DNA of 64,000 nucleotides from Cyclobacterium xiamenense (GTDB lineage Bacteria; Bacteroidota; Bacteroidia; Cytophagales; Cyclobacteriaceae): positions 62,001 to 126,000 of the forward strand of contig NZ_WIOK01000002.1 of assembly GCF_009467825.1 (NCBI RefSeq), written 5' to 3'. Numbering within the stretch: position 1 is the stretch's first letter; each line of letters opens with the position of its first letter. The notes below the pieces were generated by a model. The model was not told the DNA's origin, searched no databases, and was given only the letters and a program-made list of their open reading frames with translations. Positions 11,305 to 45,094 of the stretch are shown piece after piece. The translations under genes were made by a program, and so were the position numbers.

Positions 11305-12039
11305 ATGGATTTGGACATGCGAACAGCCAGTTTGGGAGCCATTGTCACGGCAAACTCCTGGACAACCGACGTTTTTGACGCGTACGGAATTGATTATTGT
11401 TGCCGTGGATCGGAGCGCCTATCGGATACCTGTGAGCGCCTATCGATCCCCTTGGACCAGATCGCAGACCAACTGCAATCCTATGTTGATCATCACGCTT
11501 CGCCGCGGTTTTCCTTTGATTTCTGGCCGATGGGGCTTTTGGCCAGTTATATTGAGCGGAAGCATCATCGGTACGTAAAAACACAAATTCCCTTACTGGT
11601 GAATTTGTTCAAGGAAGCATTGCATGAACCGTCCGAACAAATGGACATCCTATTCGAGGTGAAGCAGGTATTTTGGAAAGTCGCGGAAGACCTGTTAGAC
11701 CATATCCAACGCGAAGAGCGAATTCTTTTTCCCTATCTACGAAAAATGGAGGCCAATGAAGAGGGCGATATTCCCTTTGCTGCGCCGCATTTCGGTACGG
11801 TTCGGCACTCCATCATTACCTTGTTTCGGGAGCATGAAAAAGAGGGGATATGGCTGCAGCAGATCCGAGACATTACGAATAATTTTTCCCTGCCTGCACA
11901 AGCAGGTTATTGGGAGCGACTACTGTTTCCACAATTGGCCGCCTTTGAACAGGATATGAAGACACACCTCCATTTGGAAAACAACATTCTTTTTCCAAAG
12001 GCGCTAGCTGTGGCTGAGAAAGTTGGTGCCGGGGCTTAA
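11305..12039 (+). CDS. ric: Iron-sulfur cluster repair di-iron protein (RIC/ScdA/YtfE)
   Basis: 244 residues with the normal two-domain layout. The ScdA_N domain is at about 1-60, including the conserved DYCCRG (usually DYCCGG), and a hemerythrin-like four-helix bundle follows at about 75-235. Candidate iron ligands are the histidines and glutamates in ERKHHRYV, DHIQREERILFPYL, VRHSIITLFREHEKEG and HLHLENNILFP. RIC restores Fe-S clusters and other iron centres damaged by nitric oxide or peroxide in the cytoplasm. It leads the cluster behind the operator at 11170; the membrane protein starts 10 bases after its stop. Confidence 0.93.
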   Translation: MDLDMRTASLGAIVTANSWTTDVFDAYGIDYCCRGSERLSDTCERLSIPLDQIADQLQSYVDHHASPRFSFDFWPMGLLASYIERKHHRYVKTQIPLLVNLFKEALHEPSEQMDILFEVKQVFWKVAEDLLDHIQREERILFPYLRKMEANEEGDIPFAAPHFGTVRHSIITLFREHEKEGIWLQQIRDITNNFSLPAQAGYWERLLFPQLAAFEQDMKTHLHLENNILFPKALAVAEKVGAGA

Positions 12040-12049
12040 CTCAGTTTAC

Positions 12050-13156
12050 ATGAAAAAGATACCCCCTGCATACCTCTTACCGCTTGTGGTTGGTGGCCTA
12101 CTTGCCGGACTCTTGGGAGGCTGGTTGAGGCTGGGATACGGTGGTTTTTCGGCTCCCCTGGCAGCGGCTCATCACGGAGTCCTGATGGTGGGTGGGTTTC
12201 TGGGTACCCTCATTTCTCTGGAGCGGAGTGTAGTCATGAAAAACCCGGCCTGGCTACTGCTTCCCTTACTGAGTGGACTATCCATCCCTTTATTTCTCGG
12301 CGGTTGGCACAAAACGGGAGCCATTTTTTTGTTGATTGCCAGCCTGGGTTTGCTGGTGCTGCTGTACAAGCAATCGCTACGGACGTCGGATGTGCCTACT
12401 TACCTCATTGCTTTTGGGGGCGCCTGTTGGATGTTGGGAAATTTCACGTATCTCTACACCGATTTTGTGGTCCTTTCTACCGGCTGGTGGATGGCATTTT
12501 TGTTTTTTACCATCCTGGGCGAACGATTGGAGTTAAGCCGCTACTTGTCCGTTCCGATACGCATGTACCGCCTGCTGTACCTGCTGCTAGCTGCCCACTG
12601 TATCGGTTTATTGCTGCCCTTTCACCTGTGGGGGAGAGTAGTTTTGGGTGCTTCGGCGCTGGGTGTGGGGATTTGGCTGCTACGCTACGACATGGCGCGC
12701 CATGGGGTCAAAAAGCCCGGTAAGTTTCGGTACATCGGTTTTGGGTTATTAGTGGGCTATGCCTGGCTGGTACTGCATGGCCTGGTACTGCTTTTCCTGG
12801 ACAACCACCCCTTTCATTACGACCTGTATTTGCATACCTTTTTCCTGGGATTTGTCTTTTCGATGATCTGGTCACATGCGCCGATTATCTTTCCAGCAGT
12901 CTTTGGGATTAAAGTTGACGTATTCCATCCGCTGCTGTGGTGGGTATGGGGAGTTTTTCAGCTTAGTTTGGTAGCACGTATCGCCTCCTCCTGGGCTGGC
13001 TGGCCTTCCTGGCGCTTTTTCTTTGGTGCGCTTAACGGGTTTTCCATCATTGCTGTTTTTCTGTCCATGGCCCTGGTCGTGGGTTTTCGATGGCGAGCTA
13101 TCCACCTCAAATCTTCCGGTATGCAAACCGGGAGTCAACGATCTGGATTGGAATAA
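12050..13156 (+). CDS. NnrS-like polytopic membrane protein
   Basis: 368 residues with about ten to twelve hydrophobic segments. Histidine-bearing helices AAAHHGVLMVGGFLG near 35-50 and LYLHTFFLGFVFSMIWSHAP near 265-285 match the pattern of NnrS proteins, which bind heme and copper and protect cells against NO stress. Similarity to classical NnrS is distant. The ATG at 12050 is chosen rather than an upstream start overlapping ric, because it begins MKKIPPAYLLPLVVGG directly before the first helix. Spacing of 10 bases from ric points to co-transcription. Confidence 0.65.
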   Translation: MKKIPPAYLLPLVVGGLLAGLLGGWLRLGYGGFSAPLAAAHHGVLMVGGFLGTLISLERSVVMKNPAWLLLPLLSGLSIPLFLGGWHKTGAIFLLIASLGLLVLLYKQSLRTSDVPTYLIAFGGACWMLGNFTYLYTDFVVLSTGWWMAFLFFTILGERLELSRYLSVPIRMYRLLYLLLAAHCIGLLLPFHLWGRVVLGASALGVGIWLLRYDMARHGVKKPGKFRYIGFGLLVGYAWLVLHGLVLLFLDNHPFHYDLYLHTFFLGFVFSMIWSHAPIIFPAVFGIKVDVFHPLLWWVWGVFQLSLVARIASSWAGWPSWRFFFGALNGFSIIAVFLSMALVVGFRWRAIHLKSSGMQTGSQRSGLE

Positions 13157-13186
13157 AAAAGGATAGGCAATGAGTGGTTCCTTGTG

Positions 13187-13194
13187 TATCTTTG
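13187..13194 (+). promoter_or_regulatory. Candidate -7 promoter element (TATCTTTG)
   Basis: A perfect TAnnTTTG lies 13 bases before the ATG at 13207. An AAAAAAGGATA stretch upstream (about 13155-13165) equals one arm of the operator at 11170. No good -33 element is seen. Confidence 0.5.
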
Positions 13195-13206
13195 TTCGTA
13201 GAAACC

Positions 13207-13596
13207 ATGGCTAAACGAATCGTATCCTACGGCGTTCCCTTTTTACTGGCAGGCTTGTTGCTCGTGCAGAGTGTCTCGCTGTCCCTGATTCAGTTGGACT
13301 TTATGTGGAACAGAGAGACGATTGCTGCCTTGTTTTGTGTCAATTTGGACAAGCCGGAGATGAATTGCGCGGGATCCTGTGAATTGGGGCGGCGATTGGA
13401 AAAGGCGGCCGATACGGAACAGCCACACGATCTTCGCCTGGTGGAGTCAATCTCCGCGGTTTTTGTGCTTGCGACCGCCTATGTTTTCCCGGCACGTTTC
13501 GGTTTCAAAATGCCCGATCAACGCCTGGCTGTTTACACCGTGTATGGTAGTGGTCAAGTTTTTCCTGCTGGTATTTTTCACCCGCCCCGGCTTTGA
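13207..13596 (+). CDS. Small membrane-anchored protein with conserved Cys motif
   Basis: 129 residues. One N-terminal hydrophobic helix (SYGVPFLLAGLLLVQSVSLS) is followed by FCVNLDKPEMNCAGSCELGR. This matches a Bacteroidota family of about 130 residues with a consensus like C-x-N-x-D-K-P-x(3)-C-x-G-x-C-x-L and an end like IFHPP, here IFHPPRL, so the protein is complete. Members often lie beside TonB receptors or copper genes, and the three cysteines suggest metal handling at the membrane. Function is not established. Start at ATG 13207 rather than 13174, as the promoter element overlaps the latter. Confidence 0.65.
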   Translation: MAKRIVSYGVPFLLAGLLLVQSVSLSLIQLDFMWNRETIAALFCVNLDKPEMNCAGSCELGRRLEKAADTEQPHDLRLVESISAVFVLATAYVFPARFGFKMPDQRLAVYTVYGSGQVFPAGIFHPPRL

Positions 13597-13920
13597 TTTT
13601 ATTTCTTACGGTGTAGCCAGGCAATGGCAGTAGTGACGGTAGACCTTCGGAATACCGCCTCCCGGTACCGCTCAATCGGGTATCCCTGTGCGTAGAAATA
13701 CGATGATAGGTAGCACCCCTTTTGGCCAGACGGTTCGCTGCCCATGCCCCCCTGTCGCTAGCCAGTTGCTGGCTTTCCCCCAAGGAGAAGACCCAGGGTG
13801 ATACATGCTACACAATTCAAAAAAGCCAGTCAGTATCTTCGTAACACCTTCACGGTTCCTAACCAACGGTACCCTGTTTCACGCATTTCCCCATTCGGGA
13901 AATCCAAAAATTTGATTTCA
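13597..13920. other. Intergenic, no gene seen
   Basis: 324 bases upstream of the copper-receptor gene. It was inspected for a cobalamin-type riboswitch because TonB genes often carry one, but no conserved B12 box is present. A TATCTTCG sequence near 13832 is one base off the promoter consensus. Confidence 0.45.
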
Positions 13921-16176
13921 ATGAAAACGATCTTTATATATGTGCTACAAGCCATGCTATTGATGGCTCCACTTGCGATTATTCATGCCCAAGAGGGCAA
14001 ACCTTTGCAGATTTTTGATGCGGAGGATGGTGCGCCCATTTCCGGATTCAGATATCGGTATGGTACACAGCTTGGGAGCAGCGATACTTCCGGAACGATC
14101 TTTTTGCGAAGGGATCCGGGCAGTAGGTTGCGGTTGCAACACCTTCGGTACGGGACATGGGAACTAACCGAATCCGCTTTTGACCGGCTTTGGGAAACTG
14201 GCAGCAGTACCTGGCAGCCGGAATGGATGGAGCTTTCGCCGGTTTCGGTCATTTCCATTGGCATCCCTCAGGAAAAGGATCAGCAAATTGCCTTTTCGGC
14301 CCGGGAGAAGCTGCATCACGACGCGGGGGCTTTGCTCAACGAAAACCCCATGATTTCTTCCATCCGCAAGAGTGGTGCCTTCGGCTTTGACCCGGTGATG
14401 CGGGGCTTTAAATACGATCAGATCAATGTGGTGGTGGACGGATTGCAATCGGCCACTGCGGCCTGCCCCAACCGGATGGACCCACCTACCTCCCAGATAG
14501 CGCTGGGCCGGATGCAAAAGGTGGAATTACTCAAAGGGCCTCATGCGCTGCGCTACGGGATTGGACTGGGTGGAACTCTAAACTTTGTGAGCGAAGCTCC
14601 GGAATTTGTCGAAAACCCGGCTACCTACGGCAGGTTTTCAAGTATGTGGGAGCAAAACGGGCAGGTGCTGCGAAACGAAGGGAAGTTGGGTTGGCGAACA
14701 CAGCAGGCGGATATGGGGCTTATCGGTTCCTGGTCCCGGGGTTCGGATTACCGGGACGGTGCAGGGAATACCGTACCCGCTTCCTTTATGCGCGCCTCCG
14801 TCGGGTTCTACGGGGATTTTGCCACCGGGGCGGGAGAAAATTTGTCGGTGAATCTTAACCGGAATTTTGCCCGCGACGTGGCGTTCCCAACGCTGCCAAT
14901 GGACCTACGAAAAGACGATACCTGGATGGCAAATGCCAGATTTAAGAAGTCCTTTGAGGGGCGGCTGCTAAAATCCATTACCCAATCGGCCTACCTTAGC
15001 AAAGTAGACCATTTGATGGACAATGGCTTACGCGAGATAAATCGCCGGATGATGGATGCCCGAACGCCGGCAAAAACTGCCAATGCAGGGGGACGGGTAG
15101 AAGGAGAATGGCACCCGGGTACCGGTCGACTGTTTGCCGGTCTGGATTTCCGAAGCGAAAAGGCTGAAGGAACGCGGGAACGGACCTTTCTGATGGGACC
15201 GAACGAAGGCAAAACCCTGTTGGACAATGCCTGGCAAGAGGCGCTGATTCAGAAATTCGGTGTTTTTACCGCCTATTCGCTTCCCTTGAAAGCAGGGATG
15301 TTTAGCATCTCTGGCCGTCTGGACATGAACCGGGCACAGGCCCTGGACCCAACCGTTGAATTCAGCCAGCAGTTTGAGGAAATTTCCACCGTTCAAGCCA
15401 ACCCGGGTTTGTCGCTGGGATGGCAAAATGACCTCAGCGATCGCTGGCAAATCGGTATTTGGCTTGCCCGCGTCAGCAGAAGCGGCAGCCTTACCGAGCG
15501 GTACATCCATTATTTTCCGGTAGGGTTGGATCCCTACGAGCTTCTGGGGAACCCACAACTGCAATCCGAAACCAACAACCAATTCGACCTGAGTCTTCAG
15601 CACCGCACCGAAGGCCTTTCCATCTCAGTCAGCTTGTTTGGGGCTTACCTGAATGACTACATCACGGGAGTTCGCACCGATCTTGCACCCCGACTGCCCC
15701 AAAGTCCCGGAGTCAGGCAGTTTATCAATGTGGAGGAGGTACTAAAAACCGGGATGGAATGGTCCATTGAGCACCGGATCGGCGGCAACTGGTCGCAATC
15801 CCTTATGGCCGCCTATACCTATGGTCAGGATCTCAGGCATCAGGAACCCCTCCCGGAAATTGCGCCCCTGGATCTACGCTATTCCTTGCAGGGAAAGCAC
15901 CTGGACGGAAAGCTGACTTCGGTGCTTCGATGGCGGGCTGTTGCTGCGCAACATCGCGTCTCTTCCCGCTTTGGTGAATCCACCACGCCCGGGTTTCATT
16001 TAGTGGACCTGGAGGGAGGGTACCGGTTGCTGCCCGCCCTGACGCTCCGGGCTTCGGTACACAATTTGCTGGATCAGACGTATTACGAGCACCTGAACCG
16101 ACCCATACGAAGTCAGGCCGGGCCGTTGTTTGCACCCGGCCGAAATTTTAGGTTGATGGTTAGTGTAGACTTCTAA
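13921..16176 (+). CDS. TonB-dependent copper receptor, OprC/NosA-like
   Basis: 751 residues. After the signal peptide (MKTIFIYVLQAMLLMAPLAI) comes a short regulatory-like domain (about 25-95), then a plug at about 120-235 with DPVMRGFKYDQINVVVDG, ATAACPNRMDPPTS and KVELLKGPHALRYGIG, then a barrel ending in FRLMVSVDF. The Cys-x3-Met motif followed by DPP (CPNRMDPP) is the copper-binding signature of OprC and of NosA, the receptor that supplies copper for N2O reductase in Pseudomonas stutzeri. NosZ needs twelve copper atoms per dimer and is encoded nearby. Assignment rests on the motif and context. ATG 13921 is preferred because the 41 upstream codons lack signal features. Confidence 0.8.
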   Translation: MKTIFIYVLQAMLLMAPLAIIHAQEGKPLQIFDAEDGAPISGFRYRYGTQLGSSDTSGTIFLRRDPGSRLRLQHLRYGTWELTESAFDRLWETGSSTWQPEWMELSPVSVISIGIPQEKDQQIAFSAREKLHHDAGALLNENPMISSIRKSGAFGFDPVMRGFKYDQINVVVDGLQSATAACPNRMDPPTSQIALGRMQKVELLKGPHALRYGIGLGGTLNFVSEAPEFVENPATYGRFSSMWEQNGQVLRNEGKLGWRTQQADMGLIGSWSRGSDYRDGAGNTVPASFMRASVGFYGDFATGAGENLSVNLNRNFARDVAFPTLPMDLRKDDTWMANARFKKSFEGRLLKSITQSAYLSKVDHLMDNGLREINRRMMDARTPAKTANAGGRVEGEWHPGTGRLFAGLDFRSEKAEGTRERTFLMGPNEGKTLLDNAWQEALIQKFGVFTAYSLPLKAGMFSISGRLDMNRAQALDPTVEFSQQFEEISTVQANPGLSLGWQNDLSDRWQIGIWLARVSRSGSLTERYIHYFPVGLDPYELLGNPQLQSETNNQFDLSLQHRTEGLSISVSLFGAYLNDYITGVRTDLAPRLPQSPGVRQFINVEEVLKTGMEWSIEHRIGGNWSQSLMAAYTYGQDLRHQEPLPEIAPLDLRYSLQGKHLDGKLTSVLRWRAVAAQHRVSSRFGESTTPGFHLVDLEGGYRLLPALTLRASVHNLLDQTYYEHLNRPIRSQAGPLFAPGRNFRLMVSVDF

Positions 16177-16223
16177 AAAAGATAATTAAGTATTTTATTT
16201 GCCCGGTAATCTGATTATCTTTG
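16175..16223 (+). promoter_or_regulatory. Promoter and possible degenerate operator of the hemerythrin-Rrf2-hemoglobin genes
   Basis: TTTG (16198-16201) and TATCTTTG (16216-16223) form a good promoter with 14-base spacing. Just upstream, AAAAAAGATAATTAAGTATTTT (16175-16196) resembles the operator at 11170 but is less symmetric. Confidence 0.5.
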
Positions 16224-16270
16224 TTTTTGTTTACTTTTGAAAGAAAGCGAAACAACTGAAAAAACGATCC

Positions 16271-16759
16271 ATGCATAAACCACTAAAGAGGCACGAAGCG
16301 TTGGTACCCTTGTCGAGGGACCACCATTTTGGCTTGCTATTGGTGTGGAAGATCCGGCAAGGGCTGGCCTTTGAGGTACGCCTTACGCGTATTCGCGATT
16401 ACGTGATTTATTACGTTGGGCACCGGATTCTTCCTCACTTTCAATTGGAAGAAGCGGAGGTGTTTCCCATTTTAGAGGCGAATGATTCGCTGCGGCAACA
16501 GGCCGAGGAGCAGCACAAAGCGATTCGAGCGACTTTTGACGGGATCAAGCGGGGAGCGCCGGAAGCGATGTCCCAGCCATTGGACGAATTAGCCGAGCGT
16601 CTGGAAGCACACATTCGGTTTGAAGAACGAACCCTGTTTGAACACATGCAGGCAGTCCTATCACCCGAGAGGCTGGAGCGCTTGGGAAAAAAAATAGCCG
16701 CAAGTCACCGGTTTGCGGACGAAATATGGGAAGATGAATTTTGGAAAAAAGATAACTAG
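16271..16759 (+). CDS. Hemerythrin-domain protein
   Basis: 162 residues, a single four-helix hemerythrin-like (HHE) domain. Likely iron ligands are in LSRDHHFGLLL, GHRILPHFQLEEAEVFP, EEQHKAI and EAHIRFEERTLFEHM, which gives the usual H...HxxxE...H...HxxxE pattern. There is no signal peptide, so it is cytoplasmic. Such proteins bind O2 or NO or sense them; a role in NO defence is inferred from its neighbours. It ends six bases before the Rrf2 start, so the two are probably co-transcribed. Confidence 0.85.
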   Translation: MHKPLKRHEALVPLSRDHHFGLLLVWKIRQGLAFEVRLTRIRDYVIYYVGHRILPHFQLEEAEVFPILEANDSLRQQAEEQHKAIRATFDGIKRGAPEAMSQPLDELAERLEAHIRFEERTLFEHMQAVLSPERLERLGKKIAASHRFADEIWEDEFWKKDN

Positions 16760-16765
16760 AAGCGC

Positions 16766-17209
16766 ATGTTTTCGAAAGCTTGTGAATACGGGATCAGAGC
16801 AGTGATCTACATTTGGTCTCAGAATAAACGTGGGATCAAACTCGGCGTAAAGGATATTTGCAAAGAAATTGATGCCCCGGAATACTTCACGGCAAAGATT
16901 TTACAATCCCTAGCGAAGCAAAATTTGGTTAGTTCGACCAAGGGGCCGAACGGAGGATTTTATATCGACACGGACCAGGAAAAAATGCGTTTATTGGATC
17001 TGGTAATTGCCATCGACGGTGATTCCCTGTTCAAGGGCTGCGGATTGGGCTTGAAGCATTGTTCGGAACAGCATCCTTGCCCCATTCACGGTGAGTACAA
17101 GGTCATACGGGAGGGACTCACGCGCCTGTTGGCGGACAAAAGTTTAAAGGAATTAGCGGAGGAGGTGTCTTCTGGAAAAGCGACACTCTCCACCGTTATG
17201 GTTACCTGA
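16766..17209 (+). CDS. Rrf2-family regulator, probable NO sensor (NsrR-like)
   Basis: 147 residues. The N-terminal winged helix-turn-helix (MFSKACEYGIRAVIYIWSQN ... QNLVSSTKGPNGGFYI) is typical of Rrf2. The C-terminal cysteines C-x6-C-x5-C (about residues 91-104, CGLGLKHCSEQHPC) match Fe-S ligands in NsrR/IscR-type members. The genes around it (ric, hemerythrin, truncated hemoglobin, nos) make NO or nitrogen-oxide sensing the likely role. The proposed site is the GATA-N4-TATC palindrome at 11177 and 19747. NsrR versus IscR identity is inferred from context. Confidence 0.83.
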   Translation: MFSKACEYGIRAVIYIWSQNKRGIKLGVKDICKEIDAPEYFTAKILQSLAKQNLVSSTKGPNGGFYIDTDQEKMRLLDLVIAIDGDSLFKGCGLGLKHCSEQHPCPIHGEYKVIREGLTRLLADKSLKELAEEVSSGKATLSTVMVT

Positions 17210-17231
17210 TGTAGGAATAAACGACGGGAAA

Positions 17232-17630
17232 GTGGAAGCGAAGAAGAGAGAAATTGGTACCCTGGAAGAAATTCGCGAATTGGTGGATTTGTTTTACGGT
17301 AAGGTAAGAAACGATGACTTGTTGGGTCCTGTTTTCGACAAGCGAATCGGCGATCACTGGGACGTTCACCTGGATAAAATGTACCGGTTTTGGCAAACCG
17401 TTTTGCTTCAGGAGCACAGGTACCAGGGGAGTCCGTTTACGCCGCATGCAAGCATGCCCATCGGCGCGGCACATTTTCGTCGCTGGCTACAATTATTTGA
17501 GGAAACGCTGGAAGAAAATTTCACGGGAGAAAAGGCGGAAGAGGCCCGATGGCGCGCTGCGAAAATGGCAGAAATGTTTCAGCTCAAAATTGCCTATTAC
17601 CGGGATCACTCCATCCACCCAATTGGCTAG
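17232..17630 (+). CDS. Group III truncated hemoglobin
   Basis: 132 residues, starting at GTG. Conserved group III features include FYGKVRNDDLLGPVFD, HWDVHLDKMYRFWQTVLL, YQGSPFTPHASMPIG, and HFRRWLQLFEETLEENF; the proximal heme His should lie in the AHFRRW segment. It binds O2 and NO in the cytoplasm and probably acts as NO dioxygenase or NO scavenger here. It follows the Rrf2 gene by 22 bases in the same direction. Its stop overlaps the stop of the convergent SCO1 gene by a few bases. Confidence 0.88.
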   Translation: MEAKKREIGTLEEIRELVDLFYGKVRNDDLLGPVFDKRIGDHWDVHLDKMYRFWQTVLLQEHRYQGSPFTPHASMPIGAAHFRRWLQLFEETLEENFTGEKAEEARWRAAKMAEMFQLKIAYYRDHSIHPIG

Positions 17631-18232
17631 TTTTTCTGGGATACCTGTAGAATTTGCGCGATGATTTCGTCGTTTTGCAGACCCAAGCCTTCTTTCTGGT
17701 AGGTAAGAACTCCCTCTGTATCGAAAACGCTGATGATGTTCGAATGGGAAAAATCGATTGGGTCGATTCGCTTGTATTTCATGGAAAGAACGTTGGCAAA
17801 CTCCCTTACACCGGCTTCCGTGCCTTGCAAAAAGAGCCATTGCTCCCCATCCATACCGTTATCGGCTGCAAATTGCTTTAATTTCTCGGGATGGTCGTTT
17901 GTTGGGTCGATGCTGACCAGAATGTATTGCGGTGGTACGGATACGTCCGGTGCGGCTTTCGCTTCGATGGCCCGCATGTCCGCAACCAGCCTGGGGCAGG
18001 CCGTTTTGCAGGCGGTATAGATCATGACCACCACCAAGGGCTGCCCCTTCAAATCTTCGAAGGAAATGGACTTGCCCCGGTGGGTATTCCAATCGGAGGG
18101 AAGCTGGTAGATGGACATGTCGTTAACGGTGGTCGGTTCGGCCAGATTCATGGCGGGACCCTTTTTTTCCTGGGGACTGCAGCTGAGCAACAAAAGAGAA
18201 ATCGCGATAATAAATAGCTGTGCGGTTTTCAT
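17627..18232 (-). CDS. SCO1/SenC/PrrC-family copper lipoprotein
   Basis: 201 residues. The lipoprotein signal MKTAQLFIIAISLLLLSCSP has Cys18. The thioredoxin-like fold carries the copper site Cys-x3-Cys (YTACKTACP, near 78) and the later His in DFSHSN (near 163). SCO proteins deliver copper to CuA centres of cytochrome oxidase and are also linked to nitrogen-oxide reductases. Location between NO-detoxification genes and a nirK remnant, with nosZ close by, suggests it serves the CuA of NosZ or formerly the copper sites of NirK. It is convergent with the hemoglobin gene. Confidence 0.9.
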   Translation of the reverse strand: MKTAQLFIIAISLLLLSCSPQEKKGPAMNLAEPTTVNDMSIYQLPSDWNTHRGKSISFEDLKGQPLVVVMIYTACKTACPRLVADMRAIEAKAAPDVSVPPQYILVSIDPTNDHPEKLKQFAADNGMDGEQWLFLQGTEAGVREFANVLSMKYKRIDPIDFSHSNIISVFDTEGVLTYQKEGLGLQNDEIIAQILQVSQKN

Positions 18233-18268
18233 GGCGGTAGTTGTTTTTTGTTTACGAAAGATTTCTAG

Positions 18269-19034
18269 TTACTTGTTGGGTAGGGGCAAATCCGCCGCGC
18301 AGCGAAAGCCCAGGTTGGTCAGGGAGTAGCGGGCCTTTAGGCTGGAGCGCATGGCATAGCGCATAAAGGCGGCATAGTTCATCAGGTCATTGGCACCGAG
18401 CGCTCCGCTGGCACAAAACAAGCCCAAATCCGTATTGCCGTTGTTTCGGGATTCGCCCGTCAGGATTATGGCGTTAAAGTCTTCGGCCCATTCCCAGACC
18501 AGTCCATGTAGGTCATGGATTTCCCAGATGTTGGGCTCCTGATTCCCTACGTGGGTGAGGTAGGATTTGGGTTGCTCGTAGCCGGACAGGATGGCCCGGG
18601 TAAATAGGCTGTCCTTCCGGGCGTCTTTTTCGGCGGTACTGGCCATGGCCACGTATTCCCATTCGTCTATTGTTGGCAAGCGCTTGTCCAGGCATTCGCA
18701 ATAGGCTTTTGCAGCAAACCAGGAAACCTGAACCACAGGGCTGTTTTTTTAACCGTTCCGGAAAGGTATCGTCGTCTTCCCAGAAAAGCAGGTACCGCTC
18801 GTCGGCAAACAGGCGGGCTACTTCCGATTTTCTCCATTTGGGGTTTTCCCGGACAAATTTCAGAAAATCTGCATGGGTGACCGGGGTCGGATCCATGTAA
18901 AAGTCCGCCACCTGAACCAGTTCTTCACCGGTACCGTAGAGGGGCCTGTAGGTCCCGCCGGAAATGGCGACCATTTGGGCATGCAGGCTTGGAGCCTGCA
19001 TGCCGAGTAGGATAAGGAGTAGGACCGGTTTCAT
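18269..19034 (-). pseudogene. SUMF1/formylglycine-generating-enzyme-like gene, frameshifted
   Basis: Two overlapping minus-strand frames make one protein. The first (from ATG at 19034) has a signal peptide and the usual start [14 protein letters not shown] ... DPTPVTHADFLKFV, and breaks after FPERLKK. The second (to 18269) continues VVQVSWFAAKAYCECLDKRL, PTIDEWEYVAM and ends NLGFRCAADLP, the standard SUMF1 order. The break is at seven T residues (18744-18750; seven A in the mRNA). Removing one A restores ERLKNSPVVQVSWF. It may be a real mutation, an assembly error, or corrected by slippage. SUMF-like proteins with this domain are found beside nirK in some Bacteroidota, as far as I recall; the role there is unclear. 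Its ATG overlaps the stop of the nirK remnant (ATGA). Confidence 0.8.
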
Positions 19035-19599
19035 TTTCTTCGGGCCTGGACCATTTCCGGCTGGATGACCGTACCATTGTTCCCCAACTTTGGTACACGT
19101 AGCGTCCGGGATTAATTACCTTGAAGGAAAAGGTTTTTTCATGCCCAGGTGCTACGAATGAGGCTTCTGCGCCGCCGCCTTGCCCGGTCACGGCGTGGAG
19201 GTCGATGTTGTGTGGAAGCTTGTTGTCGGGGTGGTTTTTGATGGTGAATTCCACCAGATCACCCACGCGGGTACGGATAAAGGAACCCGGTACCGAGCCG
19301 CCAAAGGTCCAGTACATGTAGGTGACGCCATCGGTCATTTCGGCTTCTTTTTCGATGATTTCCATTTCCATGTACAATTTTTTAGCGGGTCGATTTCCCG
19401 CGGGGGGAGGAAGGAGTGGCGGTGCTGTCAGTACCGCTTTCTCTTCTCCAAAAATCTTTGTTTTGGAATGGACGGCAACACTTTCGGGTTGATGAATCGT
19501 TTTGGCGGCTTCGCTACCGCAGCCCGACAATCCTACAATCAATAAAAAGATAATAGGTTAAAAAACTCCTTTAAATGGATTTGCTTGTGTATGTTTCAT
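19031..19599 (-). pseudogene. nirK: Truncated copper nitrite reductase nirK
   Basis: The first cupredoxin domain is clear: [31 protein letters not shown], then [20 protein letters not shown], which holds the first type 1 His and a type 2 His. It stops at NPGRYVYQS, exactly where YHCA (type 2 His and type 1 Cys) should be; the rest of that domain and the whole second domain are missing. Another frame then reads [16 protein letters not shown] and stops in an ATGA overlap with the SUMF1-like gene, so an internal deletion of several hundred bases is likely. Upstream, the ATG at 19599 is in frame but codon 14 is TAA (19558-19560), inside an otherwise good lipoprotein signal ([14 protein letters not shown]). 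It cannot make an active nitrite reductase. Confidence 0.85.
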
Positions 19600-19665
19600 G
19601 GTCTAATGTGCTTAAATGTTTACCAAACATGCGGTCTTCATCAAGGATTCCGACCGATTATGGAA

Positions 19666-19673
19666 CAAAGATA
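19666..19673 (-). promoter_or_regulatory. Candidate -7 element of the former nirK promoter
   Basis: CAAAGATA on the plus strand is TATCTTTG on the minus strand, a perfect TAnnTTTG, 67 bases before the nirK ATG. No clear -33 element. Confidence 0.45.
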
Positions 19674-19739
19674 GCGGGCCATGGGAATAGAATATTGTGA
19701 GAAAATTAGCTGCGCACATGGTAGTTGTCATACTTTTTT

Positions 19740-19779: not shown

Positions 19780-19877
19780 TTCCAGACGAAAAATAGAAGG
19801 AAATACACGGGTGTCATCTTCCTCTTTAAATACGATGTATGGTTTTGGACAGGTATGTTCCTTCAAATAACGGATCA

Positions 19878-21140
19878 ATGAGGAAATGTTGGGTGTTGAT
19901 TGCTATGCTTAATTTTTTGATCGCTGCCTGTTTTGGTGTGCTTCTTCGTGCGGCCTTTGTCTGGGAGATTGCTTGGATGGACTACCGGAATGTGCTTCAC
20001 GGGCATTCGCACGTAGCGCTCCTCGGTTGGTTATATCTGGGTTTTTTTTTGCTTATTCATGCAACGCTATTACCGAAGAAAAAAGCAGGAAAATCGCTAT
20101 ATACGTGGATTTTCTGGCTTACACAGGTTTCCGTTACCGGAATGATGCTGGCCTTCCCCATGCAGGGATACGCAGGGTTTTCGATTTTTTTCACCACCCT
20201 TCACCTGCTTGTGAGTTACCTCATGGTTTTTTCCGTTTGGAGGGACCACGACCGTACCGATATCCGGGTGTCATTGCTGCTGAAAACCGCCTTGCTTTTC
20301 CTGGTTTTCTCTACACTAGGGGTTTGGTTGTTAGCGGTGCTGATGGCAACGGGTGGCAAGTCTGGCATCCTGTATCAGGTGGCCATTCAATTTTACCTCC
20401 ATTTCCAATTTAACGGATGGTTGTTGTTCATTTTGCTCGCCCTGGTGGCAAAGCGTTTACCCATAGAGGTATTTGCCAATTATTTTCCCCCGGTATTCCT
20501 AATCCTGGTCTTTAGCCAGTTCTTGACTTTTGGCCTGGTTATCTTTTGGGCATACGGGAGCTATCTGGGGTATCTGGGTCATGCCCTGGGTGCAGCGATG
20601 CAGCTTTTGGCGGGCGCCCTGATTGTTTACCGGAGCCTGCGGGCGCGAACACCGGTAAGCCTCCATCACCCCAGTTCGGCCTTTGCTAAGGTAGCACTGT
20701 TGGTGGCCCTGATTCGGGTTTTATTCGAAGTACTTTTGGTGGTTCCCAGCCTGGCAGAAATGGCGGTACTAGTACGGCCGCTCATCATTGGATTCATTCA
20801 TCTGAACATGCTGGGTCTTTTTTCCGCGTATTTGTTGTTTGCAATGCATCCAGGAGAGAAGGCTGAAAAAACGGGTCCATGGCTCTATGTAAGCCTTTTG
20901 TTTTTCTGTTTGGGTTTTTTGGGCTCCGAGGCTTACCTGTTTCTACAAGGGCTGTATTACTGGATGGAATGGGGACGGCTAACCTGGTTTTACGAAAGCC
21001 TATTGGTTAACGCCTTCTTCTTATCTCTGGGAATAGTTACATATCTAGTTGATCTTTTCAGTAAATTTTATTTTCACACCAGAATTAGGTATATTTATTT
21101 ATCAAAAAAAGATATTCATACTCGAAAATCGGAAAATTAA
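19878..21140 (+). CDS. Histidine-rich polytopic membrane protein of the NO/heme-copper-oxidase-associated type
   Basis: 420 residues with about twelve hydrophobic helices. Helix 2 has LHGHSHVALLGWLYLGFF and a central helix IQFYLHFQFNGWLLFILL; the HGHSH segment recalls the heme-ligand helices of cytochrome oxidase/NO reductase subunit I and of NnrS. No full set of six metal-binding histidines is evident, so it is probably not a classical oxidase or NorB. Bacteroidota homologues are usually hypothetical. The operator upstream matches that of ric, pointing to the NO response. ATG 19878 is preferred over 19839 because the first helix begins immediately after it. The nos operon follows by 25 bases. 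Confidence 0.6.
   Translation: MRKCWVLIAMLNFLIAACFGVLLRAAFVWEIAWMDYRNVLHGHSHVALLGWLYLGFFLLIHATLLPKKKAGKSLYTWIFWLTQVSVTGMMLAFPMQGYAGFSIFFTTLHLLVSYLMVFSVWRDHDRTDIRVSLLLKTALLFLVFSTLGVWLLAVLMATGGKSGILYQVAIQFYLHFQFNGWLLFILLALVAKRLPIEVFANYFPPVFLILVFSQFLTFGLVIFWAYGSYLGYLGHALGAAMQLLAGALIVYRSLRARTPVSLHHPSSAFAKVALLVALIRVLFEVLLVVPSLAEMAVLVRPLIIGFIHLNMLGLFSAYLLFAMHPGEKAEKTGPWLYVSLLFFCLGFLGSEAYLFLQGLYYWMEWGRLTWFYESLLVNAFFLSLGIVTYLVDLFSKFYFHTRIRYIYLSKKDIHTRKSEN
21101..21120 (+). promoter_or_regulatory. Possible operator half-site before the nos operon
   Basis: AAAAAAAGATATTCATAC (from 21104), at the 3' end of the preceding coding region, shares the A-run-GATA arm of the 11170 site, but the second arm is poor. 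There is no clear -7 element. Weak support only. Confidence 0.25.
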
Positions 21141-21165: not shown

Positions 21166-21657
21166 ATGAGATATGCGAAGAGATTGCTTTACGGCACGCC
21201 ATTGCTCCTTCTTTTTTACTGTGCGGGACCGGAGAAGTCGGAAAATGCTACCCAAACAGCTGCCGAAAACGATGTTCCCGAGACCATCAAAATGGGAAAG
21301 GGTGTCGGTGAGTTTACCGAAGTGGAAGTTTCTGATCCCTTAAACGACGAATGGATAGAACGCGGCGAATCCATCTACGACCTGAAATGTTCGGCCTGCC
21401 ACAAACTGACCGATCAGCGCGTGGTCGGGCCCGGTTTTCAGGGTGTGACCAATCGGAGAAAGCCGGAGTGGATCATGAACATGATTACCAATGTGGATGC
21501 CATGCTGGATCAGGATCCTGCTGCACAAAAGCTATTGGAAGAATGCATGACCCGCATGCCCAACCAGAATATCAAGCCGGATGATGCCAGGAAAATCCTG
21601 GAGTTTTTCCGGCATAATGATGTAGAAAAAGCCGGTCAAAAAGACCAGGCGATATAA
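21166..21657 (+). CDS. Monoheme cytochrome c lipoprotein of the nos operon
   Basis: 163 residues. A lipoprotein signal ends at LFYCAGPE. One heme-binding motif CSACH (near 77) and a distal Met in CMTRMPNQ (near 128) define a class I cytochrome c. It lies 25 bases upstream of nosZ; clade II nos operons commonly encode such c-type cytochromes, thought to pass electrons from the quinol pool to the CuA site of NosZ. Its location is the periplasmic face of the membrane by lipid anchor. Confidence 0.88.
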   Translation: MRYAKRLLYGTPLLLLFYCAGPEKSENATQTAAENDVPETIKMGKGVGEFTEVEVSDPLNDEWIERGESIYDLKCSACHKLTDQRVVGPGFQGVTNRRKPEWIMNMITNVDAMLDQDPAAQKLLEECMTRMPNQNIKPDDARKILEFFRHNDVEKAGQKDQAI

Positions 21658-21682: not shown

Positions 21683-23653
21683 ATGCGAACCAACTTGTTA
21701 AGAACGGCCTCTTTTGCAGCAGGACTTATTGTCTCCTTGTATGGCTGCGGAGGCTCAGATACCGGCCAACTAATGGAAGGGGATGCTGCGCAACAGGCGT
21801 ATGTAGCACCCGGCGAGTACGACGAGTTTTATGCTTTCCTATCCGGAGGGTACAGCGGCCAGATTACCGCTTACGGCCTTCCATCCGGTAGACTGCTGAA
21901 AGAAATCCCGGTATTTTCGCAGTATCCGGAAAATGGCTATGGATACAGTGAAGAAACCAAGCCCATGTTCAATACCTCCTACGGTTTCGTTCCCTGGGAT
22001 GACTCCCACCACATCGAATTGTCCCAGACCGAAGGGGAATTTGACGGACGCTGGCTTTTTGTCAACGGTAACAATACGCCGAGGATCGCACGGATAGACC
22101 TGAAAACCTTCGAAACCGTAGAAATTCTGGAGATTCCGGATGTAGCAGGTTTGCATTGCGCACCTTTTATTACCGAAAATTCGGAGTATCTGGTATCCGG
22201 AACGCGTTTTAGCGTACCCATTCCCCAAAAGGACGTACCCATCGATACCTACAAAGAGAATTTCAAAGGCTTGATCAATTACGTGACAGTTGACCCGGAA
22301 CACGGGCACATGGACCTGGCCTTTCAGATTGAGATGCCTGGATTTAACTACGACCTGGCGCGAAACGGAAAGGCAGCCTCGCACGGTTGGAGCTTTTTGA
22401 CCACGTACAATTCCGAACAAGAGCATTCTTTGCTGGAGGTAAATGCTTCCCAGAAAGACAAAGACCTGATGGCGGTAGTCAATTGGAAAAAGGCGGAGGA
22501 ATACCTGGAACAAGGGAAATTTACCGAGCGGGAAACCTCCTATTTCCACAACCTGATGGATGAAGGATCCGGAGTCGTGAAGTCCACGGAGCGAAGCCTT
22601 ACCCGTATACTGGACCCGAAGGAATGCCCCGATATGGTCTATTTCATCCCCGTACCCAAGTCCCCCCACGGCTGCGATGTGGATCCTACCGGCGAATACA
22701 TCGTGGGCAATGGAAAACTCTCCGCGGATATGTCGGTGTATTCGTTCAGCAAAATCATGAAAGCCATCGAGGAAGAGAACTTCGATGGGGAGTTTGACGG
22801 TATTCCCATCATCAACTACGAAGCGGCGTTGCACGGAATCGTGGAGAAGCCCGGATTGGGACCCTTGCATACCGAATTTGACGGCAGGGGAAATGCCTAC
22901 ACCACCTTCTTTATTTCTTCCGAAGTCGTAAAATGGGATGTAGAAAGCAAGGAGATACTGGACCGGCAACCCACGTTTTACTCACCCGGACACCTGGTGA
23001 TTCCCGGGGGTGAAACCCGAAACCCGGATGGAAAATACCTGGTGGCGATGAATAAAATCACCAAAGACAGGTATTTGCCTACCGGACCCGAACTGGCCCA
23101 TTCCGCGCAATTATTTGACATTAGCGGGGATAAAATGAAGTTGATTCTGGACTTTCCCACGAAGGCCGAGCCACACTACGCCCAGGCCATCGCGGCTGAT
23201 AAAATCCAGCCCAACTCGGTCAAATTCTTCGATATCGAAGCCAATACCCATCCCCATGTCACGATGGGGGAGAGCAAATCCAGGGTAGAACGAGACGGCA
23301 AGGACGTACACGTGTACATGACGGCGATCCGGAGCCACCTGGCTCCCGATAATATCGAAGGCATACAAACGGGCGATAAGGTGTATTTTCACCTGACCAA
23401 TTTGGAGCAAGATTGGGATGTGCCGCACGGTTTGGCCATACAGGGCGCTACCAATGCAGAAATCCTGGTGATGCCCGGACAAACGCGTACCTTACTCTGG
23501 GAGCCCAAACGGCAGGGCGTTTTTGCGTTCTACTGTACGGACTTTTGTTCTGCTTTGCATCAGGAAATGTCAGGATACGTGCGCGTCTCGCCCGAGGGGT
23601 CGGATGTGCCACTGAAATGGGGACTCAACGAAGCATTACACAGCGGCGAATAA
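21683..23653 (+). CDS. nosZ: Nitrous-oxide reductase, clade II (Sec/lipoprotein type)
   Basis: 656 residues; reduces N2O to N2 in the periplasm. The N-terminus is a Sec lipoprotein signal (GLIVSLYGCGG) without a twin-arginine motif, the mark of clade II. The seven-bladed propeller contains the expected CuZ histidines: DDSHHIEL, VAGLHCAPF, KSPHGCDVDP, LGPLHTEFDG, SPGHLVIPGG and AEPHYAQA. The C-terminal cupredoxin domain has the CuA motif FYCTDFCSALHQEMSGYV, plus VPHGLAI. All metal ligands I can judge are present, so the enzyme should be active. It follows cytochrome c and precedes the accessory genes. Confidence 0.97.
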   Translation: MRTNLLRTASFAAGLIVSLYGCGGSDTGQLMEGDAAQQAYVAPGEYDEFYAFLSGGYSGQITAYGLPSGRLLKEIPVFSQYPENGYGYSEETKPMFNTSYGFVPWDDSHHIELSQTEGEFDGRWLFVNGNNTPRIARIDLKTFETVEILEIPDVAGLHCAPFITENSEYLVSGTRFSVPIPQKDVPIDTYKENFKGLINYVTVDPEHGHMDLAFQIEMPGFNYDLARNGKAASHGWSFLTTYNSEQEHSLLEVNASQKDKDLMAVVNWKKAEEYLEQGKFTERETSYFHNLMDEGSGVVKSTERSLTRILDPKECPDMVYFIPVPKSPHGCDVDPTGEYIVGNGKLSADMSVYSFSKIMKAIEEENFDGEFDGIPIINYEAALHGIVEKPGLGPLHTEFDGRGNAYTTFFISSEVVKWDVESKEILDRQPTFYSPGHLVIPGGETRNPDGKYLVAMNKITKDRYLPTGPELAHSAQLFDISGDKMKLILDFPTKAEPHYAQAIAADKIQPNSVKFFDIEANTHPHVTMGESKSRVERDGKDVHVYMTAIRSHLAPDNIEGIQTGDKVYFHLTNLEQDWDVPHGLAIQGATNAEILVMPGQTRTLLWEPKRQGVFAFYCTDFCSALHQEMSGYVRVSPEGSDVPLKWGLNEALHSGE

Positions 23654-23770: not shown

Positions 23771-24361
23771 ATGGCCCTCCTATCACGCTCATCCAAACCC
23801 AGGTGGTTTCAGCTTGCCGCCGTAATTGCTTTGGCATTCGTGTTTTTGTTCCCGCTTTGGCAAATCACCCTGGAAGCGGCCCAGTTTCCCGGTGGCTTGC
23901 AGATGCATATCTGGATCAATAAGATTTCTGGTAGCGACAAACACATCGTGAAAAACATCAATATTCTGAACCACTACATCGGCATGCAGGCCATTCATCC
24001 GGAATCCATTCCCGAGTTGCGCTACTTTCCCAAGGTGGCGGCTGCGCTGATAACGCTGGGACTGCTCGGGATTTGGATCAATAAAACCTGGTATTATGGC
24101 GCTTGGTTTATGCTGCTGCTTGTTCTTGGTGGGTTGGGCATCTATGATTTCTACCTTTGGCTGTATGACTACGGCCACAACCTGGACCCCAAAGCCCCCA
24201 TCGAAGTGCCGGGCATGACCTACATGCCGCCCTTGCTGGGCGAAAAAGATCTGCTCAATTTTTACGTCAAATCGTATCCTCATGTCGGCGGAATTGCCCT
24301 GGGGCTGGCGGGCTTCCTCGGTTTTATGGCGGCGTGGTTTCGTTGGAAAATCACACGATAG
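23771..24361 (+). CDS. Membrane protein of clade II nos clusters (NosB-like)
   Basis: 196 residues with about four hydrophobic segments (for example WFQLAAVIALAFVFLFPLW, AAALITLGLLGIWI, AWFMLLLVLGGLGIYDF, GIALGLAGFLGFMAAWF). The segment LQMHIWINKISGSDKHIVKN is distinctive, with histidines facing the outside. Clade II nos operons typically carry a membrane protein, NosB, of unknown role between nosZ and nosD; position and topology agree, but I cannot verify homology. nosL starts 2 bases after its stop. Confidence 0.6.
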   Translation: MALLSRSSKPRWFQLAAVIALAFVFLFPLWQITLEAAQFPGGLQMHIWINKISGSDKHIVKNINILNHYIGMQAIHPESIPELRYFPKVAAALITLGLLGIWINKTWYYGAWFMLLLVLGGLGIYDFYLWLYDYGHNLDPKAPIEVPGMTYMPPLLGEKDLLNFYVKSYPHVGGIALGLAGFLGFMAAWFRWKITR

Positions 24362-24363
24362 CC

Positions 24364-24804
24364 ATGAATCGCTGGTACAAATATAGCCTATTGCAGGGAT
24401 GCTGTCTGCTCGTTTGGTCCTGCAGCACTTCCCCGGAGCCGATCAATTTCGGAAAGGACCATTGCGTCAATTGCAAGATGAAAATCGTCGACCCGCGGTT
24501 TGGTGGGGAATTGGTTTCCAGTAAGGGAAGGGTTTTTAAATTTGATGCGATCGAATGCCTGGTTCCCTACCTACAGGAGCATGCGACGACCGACTACGCG
24601 CAGGTGCTCGCCATTGCGTACGATCGCCCCGAAACCCTGGTGGATGTACAGGAGCTGGTTTTTGAGCGGGATTCGGCCTACCGGAGTCCGATGGGCGGCA
24701 ATGTGGCGGCCTTTACCCAGGCAGCAGCAAAGGAAGGGAAATGGATGGACTGGGAAGAGGTCAAGCAGACCATCGGTAGCCCACCCAATTCAACCAATTA
24801 TTGA
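24364..24804 (+). CDS. nosL: NosL copper chaperone lipoprotein
   Basis: 146 residues. The lipoprotein signal ends at LLVWSCST. The copper motif Cys-x2-Cys-x-Met is present in DHCVNCKMKI (near 34-40), and the conserved C-terminal SPMGGNVAAF (near 110) follows. NosL binds Cu(I) in the periplasm and supplies the CuZ/CuZ* site of NosZ. It starts immediately after the NosB-like gene and ends 7 bases before nosD. Confidence 0.92.
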   Translation: MNRWYKYSLLQGCCLLVWSCSTSPEPINFGKDHCVNCKMKIVDPRFGGELVSSKGRVFKFDAIECLVPYLQEHATTDYAQVLAIAYDRPETLVDVQELVFERDSAYRSPMGGNVAAFTQAAAKEGKWMDWEEVKQTIGSPPNSTNY

Positions 24805-24811
24805 CGTATTT

Positions 24812-26053
24812 ATGAACGGATGGAAGCTCATTTTCTTGGCGGTAATTTTCATGCAACTCGGAATGGTCGGTGCGCAAACCCGGGTTATCCACCCGGGCGA
24901 AGGAGCGGTGATCGCCCGCGCCATTCAGGAGGCAGTTCCACACGATACCCTTTTTCTCAGCAAAGGCATTTACCGGGAAAATGCCATCCTGATCGATAAA
25001 CCAGTGGTACTTATCGGAGAGGCAGGTACGGTCGTTGACGGGCAAATGGGCGATGAAATCTTTGTGATCGTTTCCGATAGCGTCAGCCTGGAAAACCTAA
25101 CCGTAAAGAATGTGGGGGTAAGTTACCTGAAAGATCGCGCAGCCATCCGATTAAACCGGGTTTCAAACGTGACCATCCGAAACAACCGGCTACTCAACAC
25201 CTTTTTTGGGATTTACCTGCAAAAATCCACCGATTGTGTCCTTCACGGGAATACCATCACCGGTGCGGCGGAAGAAGAGTCAAAAGCCGGAAATGCAATC
25301 CACATCTGGCAGGGAGAACGGATCCGGGTGAGCCATAATACGCTGAGTCAGCACCGGGACGGCATTTATTTTGAGTTTGTTGACGAAAGTGTGATTACGC
25401 ACAACCGCAGCATCCAAAACATGCGCTATGGGCTGCATTTTATGTTTTCCAACGACGATCGGTACGAAAGCAACGTGTTTCAGCACAATGGATCCGGGGT
25501 GGCGGTCATGTTTAGCAACCGCATACACATGGAAAACAACGAATTTTTGGACAACTGGGGAGGTGCCAGTTACGGATTGCTACTGAAGGAGATTTCTGAC
25601 GGCACCATTCACCGCAATCGCTTTCGCTCCAACACCGTGGGTATCTACGCTGAAGGAGCCAATCGGCTAACGATCTCCGAAAATCAGCTGGAAAACAACG
25701 GAAAGGCCATGGACATGAAAGGCAATAGCATGGACAACCGCATCCTGGAGAATAATTTTATCGGAAATACCTTTGAGGTGTTGACCAATTCCAAAACGAA
25801 CCTGAACCAGTTTGCGGGCAACTACTGGAGTCAGTATGCCGGATACGATATGGACAAAGACGGTGTGGGAGACCTGCCGCACCGGCCCCTAAATCTCTTT
25901 GCCCTCATCACCGACAAGGTCCCTGCTGCCCACATGTTGTTGCATAGTTTTTTAGTTCACAGCCTGGAGGTGGCAGAACGCATGTTTCCGCAATTTATCC
26001 CCGAGCAACTGATCGATTCCCAACCCCAAATGCATCCGTATGATCTTGATTAA
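24812..26053 (+). CDS. nosD: NosD, periplasmic maturation protein of N2O reductase
   Basis: 413 residues. A signal peptide (WKLIFLAVIFMQLGMVGAQ) precedes a right-handed parallel beta-helix built of CASH repeats: runs such as NVTIRNNRLLNTFFGIYLQK, HNTLSQHRDGIYFEFVDESV and HRNRFRSNTVGIYAEGANRL. The end GNYWSQYAGYDMDKDGVGDL is typical of NosD. NosD works with the NosFY ABC transporter in CuZ assembly. ATG 24812 gives the signal peptide; the longer frame from 24500 overlaps nosL and is not used. The 3' end overlaps nosF by 14 bases. Confidence 0.93.
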   Translation: MNGWKLIFLAVIFMQLGMVGAQTRVIHPGEGAVIARAIQEAVPHDTLFLSKGIYRENAILIDKPVVLIGEAGTVVDGQMGDEIFVIVSDSVSLENLTVKNVGVSYLKDRAAIRLNRVSNVTIRNNRLLNTFFGIYLQKSTDCVLHGNTITGAAEEESKAGNAIHIWQGERIRVSHNTLSQHRDGIYFEFVDESVITHNRSIQNMRYGLHFMFSNDDRYESNVFQHNGSGVAVMFSNRIHMENNEFLDNWGGASYGLLLKEISDGTIHRNRFRSNTVGIYAEGANRLTISENQLENNGKAMDMKGNSMDNRILENNFIGNTFEVLTNSKTNLNQFAGNYWSQYAGYDMDKDGVGDLPHRPLNLFALITDKVPAAHMLLHSFLVHSLEVAERMFPQFIPEQLIDSQPQMHPYDLD

Positions 26054-26759
26054 CCAACTGAAGAAAAATTTTGGCCGGCAGGAAGTATTGAAGGGCATAG
26101 ATCTGCACTTTTCGGCGGGAGAGGGGCTGGCACTGATCGGCCCCAACGGTTCGGGCAAGACCACCTTGATTAAATGCCTGCTGGGGCTAAATACCGTGCA
26201 ACCCGGCCAGATCCAGTATAACGGAGCGGACATTTACCAACAAAGCGCCTACCGGAAAAGCATGGGATACATGCCCCAAATTTCGCGTTTCCCTGAACAA
26301 ATGAAGGTGAAGGACCTATTTGTCCTCATGAAATCCATTCGCTCCGACCAAACGGGCTACGACCTGGATCTTTTTGAAGCGTTTGAGATCGAGTCACTTT
26401 ACGAAAAAAAAATGGGGTTCCTGTCCGGTGGCATGCGTCAGAAAGTAAGTGCAGCGTTGGCGTTCTTGTTTCGTCCCGACGTATTGGTCCTGGACGAACC
26501 CACCGCCGGCCTGGACCCGGTTTCAAACGAAGTAGTGAAAGAAAAATTGCAGAAAACCATTCACGAGGAAAACAAACTGGTGCTCATCACCTCGCATGTG
26601 CTGAACGACCTGGACGATATTGCCAGCCGCTTGGTTTACCTGGTGGAAGGCAAGGTGCTATTTGATAAACCGCTGGCTGATTTGCAGGCAGAAACCTCCG
26701 AAAACCGGTTGAATGCGATGATCGCAAAATTTTTACGAAAACAGCTAAATCATGGGTAA
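26040..26759 (+). CDS. nosF: NosF, ABC transporter ATPase
   Basis: 239 residues. Walker A is GPNGSGKTT (near 35-43), the signature is LSGGMRQK (near 128) and Walker B is VLVLDEPTAGLDP (near 150). The switch His is in ITSHVLNDL. It powers the NosDFY complex that matures the CuZ centre. It overlaps nosD by 14 and nosY by 8 bases, so translation is likely coupled. Confidence 0.94.
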   Translation: MILINQLKKNFGRQEVLKGIDLHFSAGEGLALIGPNGSGKTTLIKCLLGLNTVQPGQIQYNGADIYQQSAYRKSMGYMPQISRFPEQMKVKDLFVLMKSIRSDQTGYDLDLFEAFEIESLYEKKMGFLSGGMRQKVSAALAFLFRPDVLVLDEPTAGLDPVSNEVVKEKLQKTIHEENKLVLITSHVLNDLDDIASRLVYLVEGKVLFDKPLADLQAETSENRLNAMIAKFLRKQLNHG

Positions 26760-45083: not shown

Positions 45084-45094
45084 AATTGCAGGGG

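Follow-up and report, generated by a model that had tools for sequence, protein, structure and literature searches.

One close described counterpart of the locus examined here is the nirK-nirV gene pair, in which NirK carries a C-terminal cytochrome c domain (PMC4770552). In the accessible text of that survey, Bacteroidetes NirK is placed in its Clade II, nirV is found in about 61% of the nirK genomes, mainly in Proteobacteria and Bacteroidetes, and 66.7% of 21 Bacteroidetes genomes combine nirK with nrfA and/or nirB. According to the accessible portions of a second survey, nosZ-only organisms are over-represented in Bacteroidetes, and norB is missing in a third of the Bacteroidetes with both nirK and nosZ, which is attributed to Flavobacteriales (PMC4250227). 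The “Z-type” Bacteroidetes of that survey and Flavobacterium azooxidireducens (PMC9697520), as far as their accessible descriptions extend, possess clade II nosZ, no working nir and mostly no nor, as does the genome studied here. Decay of nirK has a described counterpart in Neobacillus drentensis, whose nirK pseudogenes likewise combine an internal stop with truncation, and a related strain with an apparently intact gene reduces nitrite further (PMC13199352, accessible part). The “truncated NirK” of Methylophaga JAM1, also considered as a precedent, was ruled out because its authors, in the accessible text, call it a cytochrome c ORF (PMC4689864).

The Cyclobacterium xiamenense locus shares the nirK-nirV order with the first of these systems, but both genes are broken. 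Nondenitrifying clade II N2O reducers are described, in the portions accessible, without any nir gene (PMC4250227, PMC9697520), whereas here a dying nirK still stands beside nosZ, so that the direction of change can be read. The N. drentensis case, as given in the accessible part of PMC13199352, belongs to another phylum and has a recorded phenotype, whereas the Cyclobacterium case, known from sequence alone, combines a repeat-flanked internal deletion with co-decay of nirV. The features of the window, by which we mean the whole stretch of 64,000 nucleotides that was analysed, are listed below.

11305-17630 (+): RIC/ScdA (11305-12039), an Rrf2 regulator (16766-17209, PF02082), and genes that we take to encode an NnrS-like protein, a TonB receptor, a hemerythrin-like protein and a truncated haemoglobin
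17627-18232 (-): SCO1/SenC-family gene, third of the nirK group, intact by domain scan and frame scoring
18269-19034 (-): nirV-like SUMF1/FGE-sulfatase gene, with a +1 frameshift in a run of seven T (18744-18750 on the + strand)
19031-19090 (-): surviving nirK tail, old frame plus stop, displaced by a 1-nt loss and ending in an ATGA overlap
19091-19101 (-): deletion junction TACGTGTACCA, where two copies of a repeat have fused (one reading YVYH ahead of the Cys motif, the other YVYH/N close to the C-terminus) with loss of 906 bp
19102-19599 (-): 5' part of the nirK remnant, with a broken signal peptide and the first cupredoxin domain (PF07732, TIGR02376)
19558-19560 (-): TAA, codon 14 of the nirK remnant
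19839-21140 (+): gene for a 12-helix protein of heme-copper-oxidase fold, oriented divergently from nirK
21166-21657 (+): cytochrome c gene beside nosZ (domain scan)
21683-23653 (+): nosZ, clade II (Sec-dependent), intact
23771-27519 (+): nosB-like gene (23771-24361), then genes we presume to be nosL, nosD, nosF and nosY
43590-45727 (-): nrfA (43590-45083) and the gene we take to be nrfH (45101-45727), both intact

The nirK remnant and its partner genes

The translation of 19599-19031 (-) starts with MKHTQANPFKGVF, meets a stop, resumes with PIIFLL and then enters the first NirK cupredoxin domain. The stop is the TAA at codon 14, within the signal peptide, that the first-pass annotation had reported, and the same codon is TAT in the relatives G003 and G001. 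A Pfam scan matched Cu-oxidase_3 (PF07732) in the remnant, which is 83% identical to intact NirK across 161 residues (E 5e-90), and TIGR02376 scored 131.8 bits over profile positions 13-123 of 326, below its curated cut-off of 296.3; homology to the N-terminal cupredoxin domain is thus present and a whole-protein NirK match is not. Together, the premature stop, the truncated profile match and the identity to intact NirK bear out the annotation of this stretch as a decayed nirK. The remnant retains HNIDLH, which, going by NirK structures, we take to be the first-domain His/Asp set. In the alignment with intact NirK the HC...H....M motif and the second-domain His are deleted, and with them, presumably, the Cys, adjacent His, Met and second-domain His ligands.

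Intact NirK, ~490 residues long, has a lipoprotein-like signal followed by two cupredoxin domains; its C-terminal part is a cytochrome c domain (CFACHQ), and it ends like TYVYHSWGNNGTVISPEMVQSRRK. In an alignment with four intact relatives, the window tracks the gene to NPG.YVY and resumes only at the final YVY.SWG, close to the C-terminus; where the remnant breaks, intact homologues continue as NPGLYVYHCATAPVGMH, confirming a break immediately ahead of the Cys/His motif. The junction, which the first-pass annotation had suggested locating by alignment to NirK, falls at 19101-19091. The deletion is internal, in frame and 906 bp long, and it lies between two imperfect 11-bp repeats, which are 302 codons (906 bp) apart in 10/10 intact relatives measured. 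It removed the Cys/His copper motifs, the second cupredoxin domain and the C-terminal cytochrome c domain, and may have arisen by replication slippage or short-repeat recombination. About 16 final nirK codons survive past the junction; beyond this junction one further base has been lost relative to the intact genes, placing the tail and its stop in another frame; the NirK search found this tail separately (79% identity, E 0.12). The earlier description of a lost second half therefore holds for the Cys/His motifs and the second domain, and extends to the cytochrome c domain, but the loss is internal and a tail remains at about 19090-19031. Similarly, the ATGA overlap with the next gene is present at 19034-19031, as the nirK/SUMF1 overlap also found in the four aligned relatives, but it belongs to the old tail frame and does not end the remnant's own frame, which extends to 18925. 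Counted from a TTG, the remnant's frame is open for 205 codons, so some product could be made.

Otherwise invariant residues are changed at 5 of 80 remnant sites, compared with 0 or 1 departures in intact NirKs of the genus and 2 to 5 in three NirKs from outside it. Three of the five lie at the junction, which leaves only two elsewhere, and decay of the remnant after the lesions is thus hardly visible. These few departures and the identity still shared by the first half suggest that the decay is probably recent, in keeping with the earlier view of a gene caught soon after the event. The dN/dS ratio was dropped as a dating tool because dS was saturated or undefined in most pairs, and we therefore give no date for the loss. 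A search of 18250-19700 against a phage collection, which bears on a mobile origin, found no match.

The SUMF1 gene directly downstream of nirK is split over two frames, with a breakpoint near 18744-18750 and hence no single open frame. PF03781 matched its C-terminal piece (71.6 bits), and by position and FGE-sulfatase domain the gene matches nirV. Invariant-site departures number 0/21 and 4/70 in its two pieces and 0/71 in SCO. Among 80 Bacteroidota loci fetched for another gene, nirV and SCO accompany nirK in 33/33 nirK-bearing loci, which fits a joint decay of nirK and nirV, although the nirV shift sits in an A7 run, where slippage might still yield some product.

Other nitrogen genes and the neighbouring 12-helix protein

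Searching the genome (5.78 Mb, rated 99.99% complete) for another nirK, nirS or norB, as the first-pass annotation had proposed, found none. The full NirK search hit the remnant and its tail and, beyond these, nothing but cytochrome c domains and weak matches; PF02239 (NirS, cytochrome cd1) had no match in this genome; and neither the quinol nor the cytochrome c type of NO reductase, searched over 12 genus genomes, was found in this one. Two members of the COX1 family are present, with open frames of 633 and 747 residues. Elsewhere in the genus, PF02239 gave partial matches in 10 of the 11 other genomes and scored above its cut-off in G002, G007 and G010 (frames of 308, 715 and 737 residues).

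The genes for N2O and nitrite reduction are better preserved. The nosZ product scored 900 bits with TIGR04246 (cut-off 625) and carries the CuA motif CTDFCSALHQEM; the equivalog-level score, this motif and a neighbouring NosB-like gene identify it as clade II (Sec) NosZ. That neighbour, 23771-24361 (+), contains LNHYIGM and YGHN, both given as NosB motifs in the accessible text of PMC9697520. PF02335 matched nrfA at E 4e-171, and its product has the make-up of a pentaheme NrfA with a single CXXCK (CWTCK) and four CXXCH motifs, next to a tetraheme NrfH with four CXXCH. With these scores, motifs and single reading frames, the earlier statement that nosZ and nrfHA are intact stands. On the other side of the remnant, RIC/ScdA scored 167.2 bits with TIGR03652, below the cut-off of 204.7. 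A NapA profile run over the 12 genus genomes gave no match above cut-off in any; below cut-off, 10 of the 12 have a match of E 6e-51 or better to a protein of roughly 1,170-1,200 aa, the two without it being this genome, where a weak match was seen (773 aa, E 5.5e-6), and G010. A nitrate reductase may thus also be missing here.

The protein encoded at 19839-21140 (+), with its start probably at 19878 by comparison with relatives, is assigned to no family but has the 12-helix fold of the heme-copper oxidase/NO reductase superfamily and conserved His at residues 54, 56, 58, 122, 188 and 321. Homologues occur in 12/12 genus genomes searched, whether or not nirK or nosZ is present; of 80 Bacteroidota loci (extending up to 10 kb to either side), 60 contain a RIC/ScdA-like gene and 66 an Rrf2 regulator. 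Profile comparison with NorB gave a probability of 8.8, COX1 and DUF2871 matched 4 and 6 of 65 homologues, respectively, and no PDB sequence match was obtained at E 1. Heme-copper oxidases have a conserved pair of His in helix 7 for the second metal; in the 65 sequences no column between residues 188 and 321 reaches 40% His (helix 7 being assigned by helix order, not superposition), and because this usual pair is missing the protein is unlikely to be an ordinary NO reductase. We tentatively entertain, as an unlikely reading, that the protein represents a heme-copper-oxidase-fold branch so far undescribed and concerned with the handling of NO. If the protein does bind heme and sense or remove NO, “nor-less” nirK Bacteroidota would perhaps not be NO-defenceless, and the loss of nirK would need re-reading.

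nirK in Cyclobacterium and its family

With the remnant as query, 14 of 59 whole genomes matched: its own, nine of the 11 other genus members, three other family members and one weak distant match. Across the 12 Cyclobacterium genomes, nirK is intact in nine, broken in one (this genome) and without a match in two (G002 and G006). The order nirK-nirV-SCO, then haemoglobin-like and Rrf2 genes, is the same in 9/9 intact-nirK genomes; of nine 20-kb stretches, just those of G001 and G003 have the nos cluster next to nirK, and nosZ occurs with nirK in 0/33 of the nirK loci among the 80 Bacteroidota loci, so their closeness in this genome is not general. In G006, nirK, nirV and SCO are missing between the haemoglobin-like gene and a 433-residue gene, and G002 is without the same three. 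In a tree built from 4,062 bases of two oxidase genes, G006 pairs with G003, and G002 does so with G009, each at 100. Since each genome without nirK is sister to one in which it is intact, the data are most simply explained by three losses of nirK in the genus, one of them caught in the act. Over 245 Cyclobacteriaceae, a long NirK match without internal stops was found in 38 and a broken N-terminal half only here, at a threshold of E 1e-25, below which older remnants would be missed. A match with one stop in G108 spans 331-487, mostly the cytochrome c domain.

The other genes of the pathway vary as well. Full-length nrfA is present in nine of the 12 genus genomes, broken in G001 and not found in G002 and G009, and seven of the nine intact-nirK genomes have it. 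nosZ is present in 8/12 and nor in 5/12 (quinol type in G001, G005, G008 and G011; cytochrome c type in G001 and G010), the NO reductases being identified by PDB sequence match (quinol type, 752 residues, E 7e-248; cytochrome c type, 453 residues, E 9e-110). NorB was also not found in G003 and G006. All three nirK losses fall among the seven nor-less genomes and none among the five with nor, but at Fisher p = 0.20 a link between the two losses is only a hint, an idea.

In G001 the situation is reversed, with nirK intact and nrfA broken (L101:10652-11180). The first 134 of 497 NrfA residues, with an in-frame TGA, are followed by the last residues, WLKEGKARESRM, in another frame, so that this gene, like nirK here, has lost an internal part but kept its tail. 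The adjacent cytochrome-assembly-like gene, of 1040 residues, is also broken. G004 carries a 37-residue quinol NO reductase fragment (L192:3987-4097), about 73% identical to an intact one and apparently a decayed nor, and G006 has a 36-residue NnrS-like match between OYE-like and Rrf2 genes (L098:7315-7422), the RIC, NnrS-like and TonB genes being otherwise not found there.

Alternative explanations and meaning of the loss

A gene that bears disabling lesions, that is intact and syntenic in relatives and of which no second copy is found has the marks of a unitary pseudogene, and 19031-19599 (-) is very probably a young one, derived from a syntenic nirK whose product had a cytochrome c domain at its C-terminus. 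A junction on a short repeat, and two 1-nt indels that fall within or beside short runs, could also come from an assembly or sequencing error that collapsed the repeats and added homopolymer indels to a gene that is truly intact. At only about 11 bp, however, the repeat is far shorter than a read, the TAA represents a substitution and not an indel, and the missing stretch is not found elsewhere in the genome, where the other NirK matches are cytochrome c domains or weak. Moreover, of 83 ORFs from six relative loci that were compared with the window, 80 gave a hit, which for 3 was no more than weak; scoring of 77 covered 34,092 window bases and flagged four, namely nirK and SUMF1, each from two genomes, and no others. 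In this scoring nosZ, the nosB-like gene, nosD, nosF, nosY, nrfH and nrfA are each covered in one frame, and nosL, of which 134 residues matched in relatives, is open in the window. Different kinds of lesion in two linked genes, with none in the other scored genes, speak for real decay, as judged from the assembled letters, and we consider an error highly improbable. We give as little credence to a retained short single-domain cupredoxin, or 205-codon product, that has taken on another role, for instance in copper binding or regulation: the first half is well conserved, its invariant-site departures lie mainly at the junction and the frame is open after the stop, but the signal peptide is interrupted, the Cys/His motif, the second domain and the cytochrome c domain are lost, and the same form occurs in 0/244 other family genomes at E 1e-25.

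The first-pass annotation had gone further and seen a switch from denitrification to N2O reduction plus ammonification, which, read as a replacement, would have nrfHA and nosZ acquired first and nirK shed afterwards. Both are indeed intact in this genome, but this claim proved too strong. Full nrfA and nosZ are widespread in the genus, the nos cluster of G001 and G003 occupies the corresponding position next to nirK, and G001 has a broken nrfA instead, all of which make such a replacement highly improbable. As most intact-nirK genomes also have full nrfA, no gain needs to be invoked, and the ammonifying branch was most likely already there; and because NorB was not found here, in G003 or in G006, a complete denitrification chain before the loss is unsupported. 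The event was most likely the loss of the nitrite-to-NO branch from a lineage that already possessed nrfHA and nosZ. In such a cell, reduction of nitrite to NO through NirK would be lost, nitrite could go to ammonium through NrfHA, and NosZ would consume N2O from outside or from minor sources. NirK without an NO reductase should release NO, and with no such enzyme left to remove it, loss of nirK may have been tolerated, or even favoured.

The remnant looks like a step from a partial denitrifier toward a pure nitrous-oxide consumer. The case is ordinary in kind, an instance of known modular gene loss, and is useful as a directional example. Tables of presence and absence cannot tell loss of nir from gain of nosZ; Cyclobacterium, which has cultured members (C. 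lianum), shows a readable intermediate, intact relatives, two clean end stages and reciprocal decay of nrfA, and these together make the direction of change testable within one genus. Primers or short profiles directed at the first NirK domain could count this organism, likely a non-reducer, as a denitrifier.
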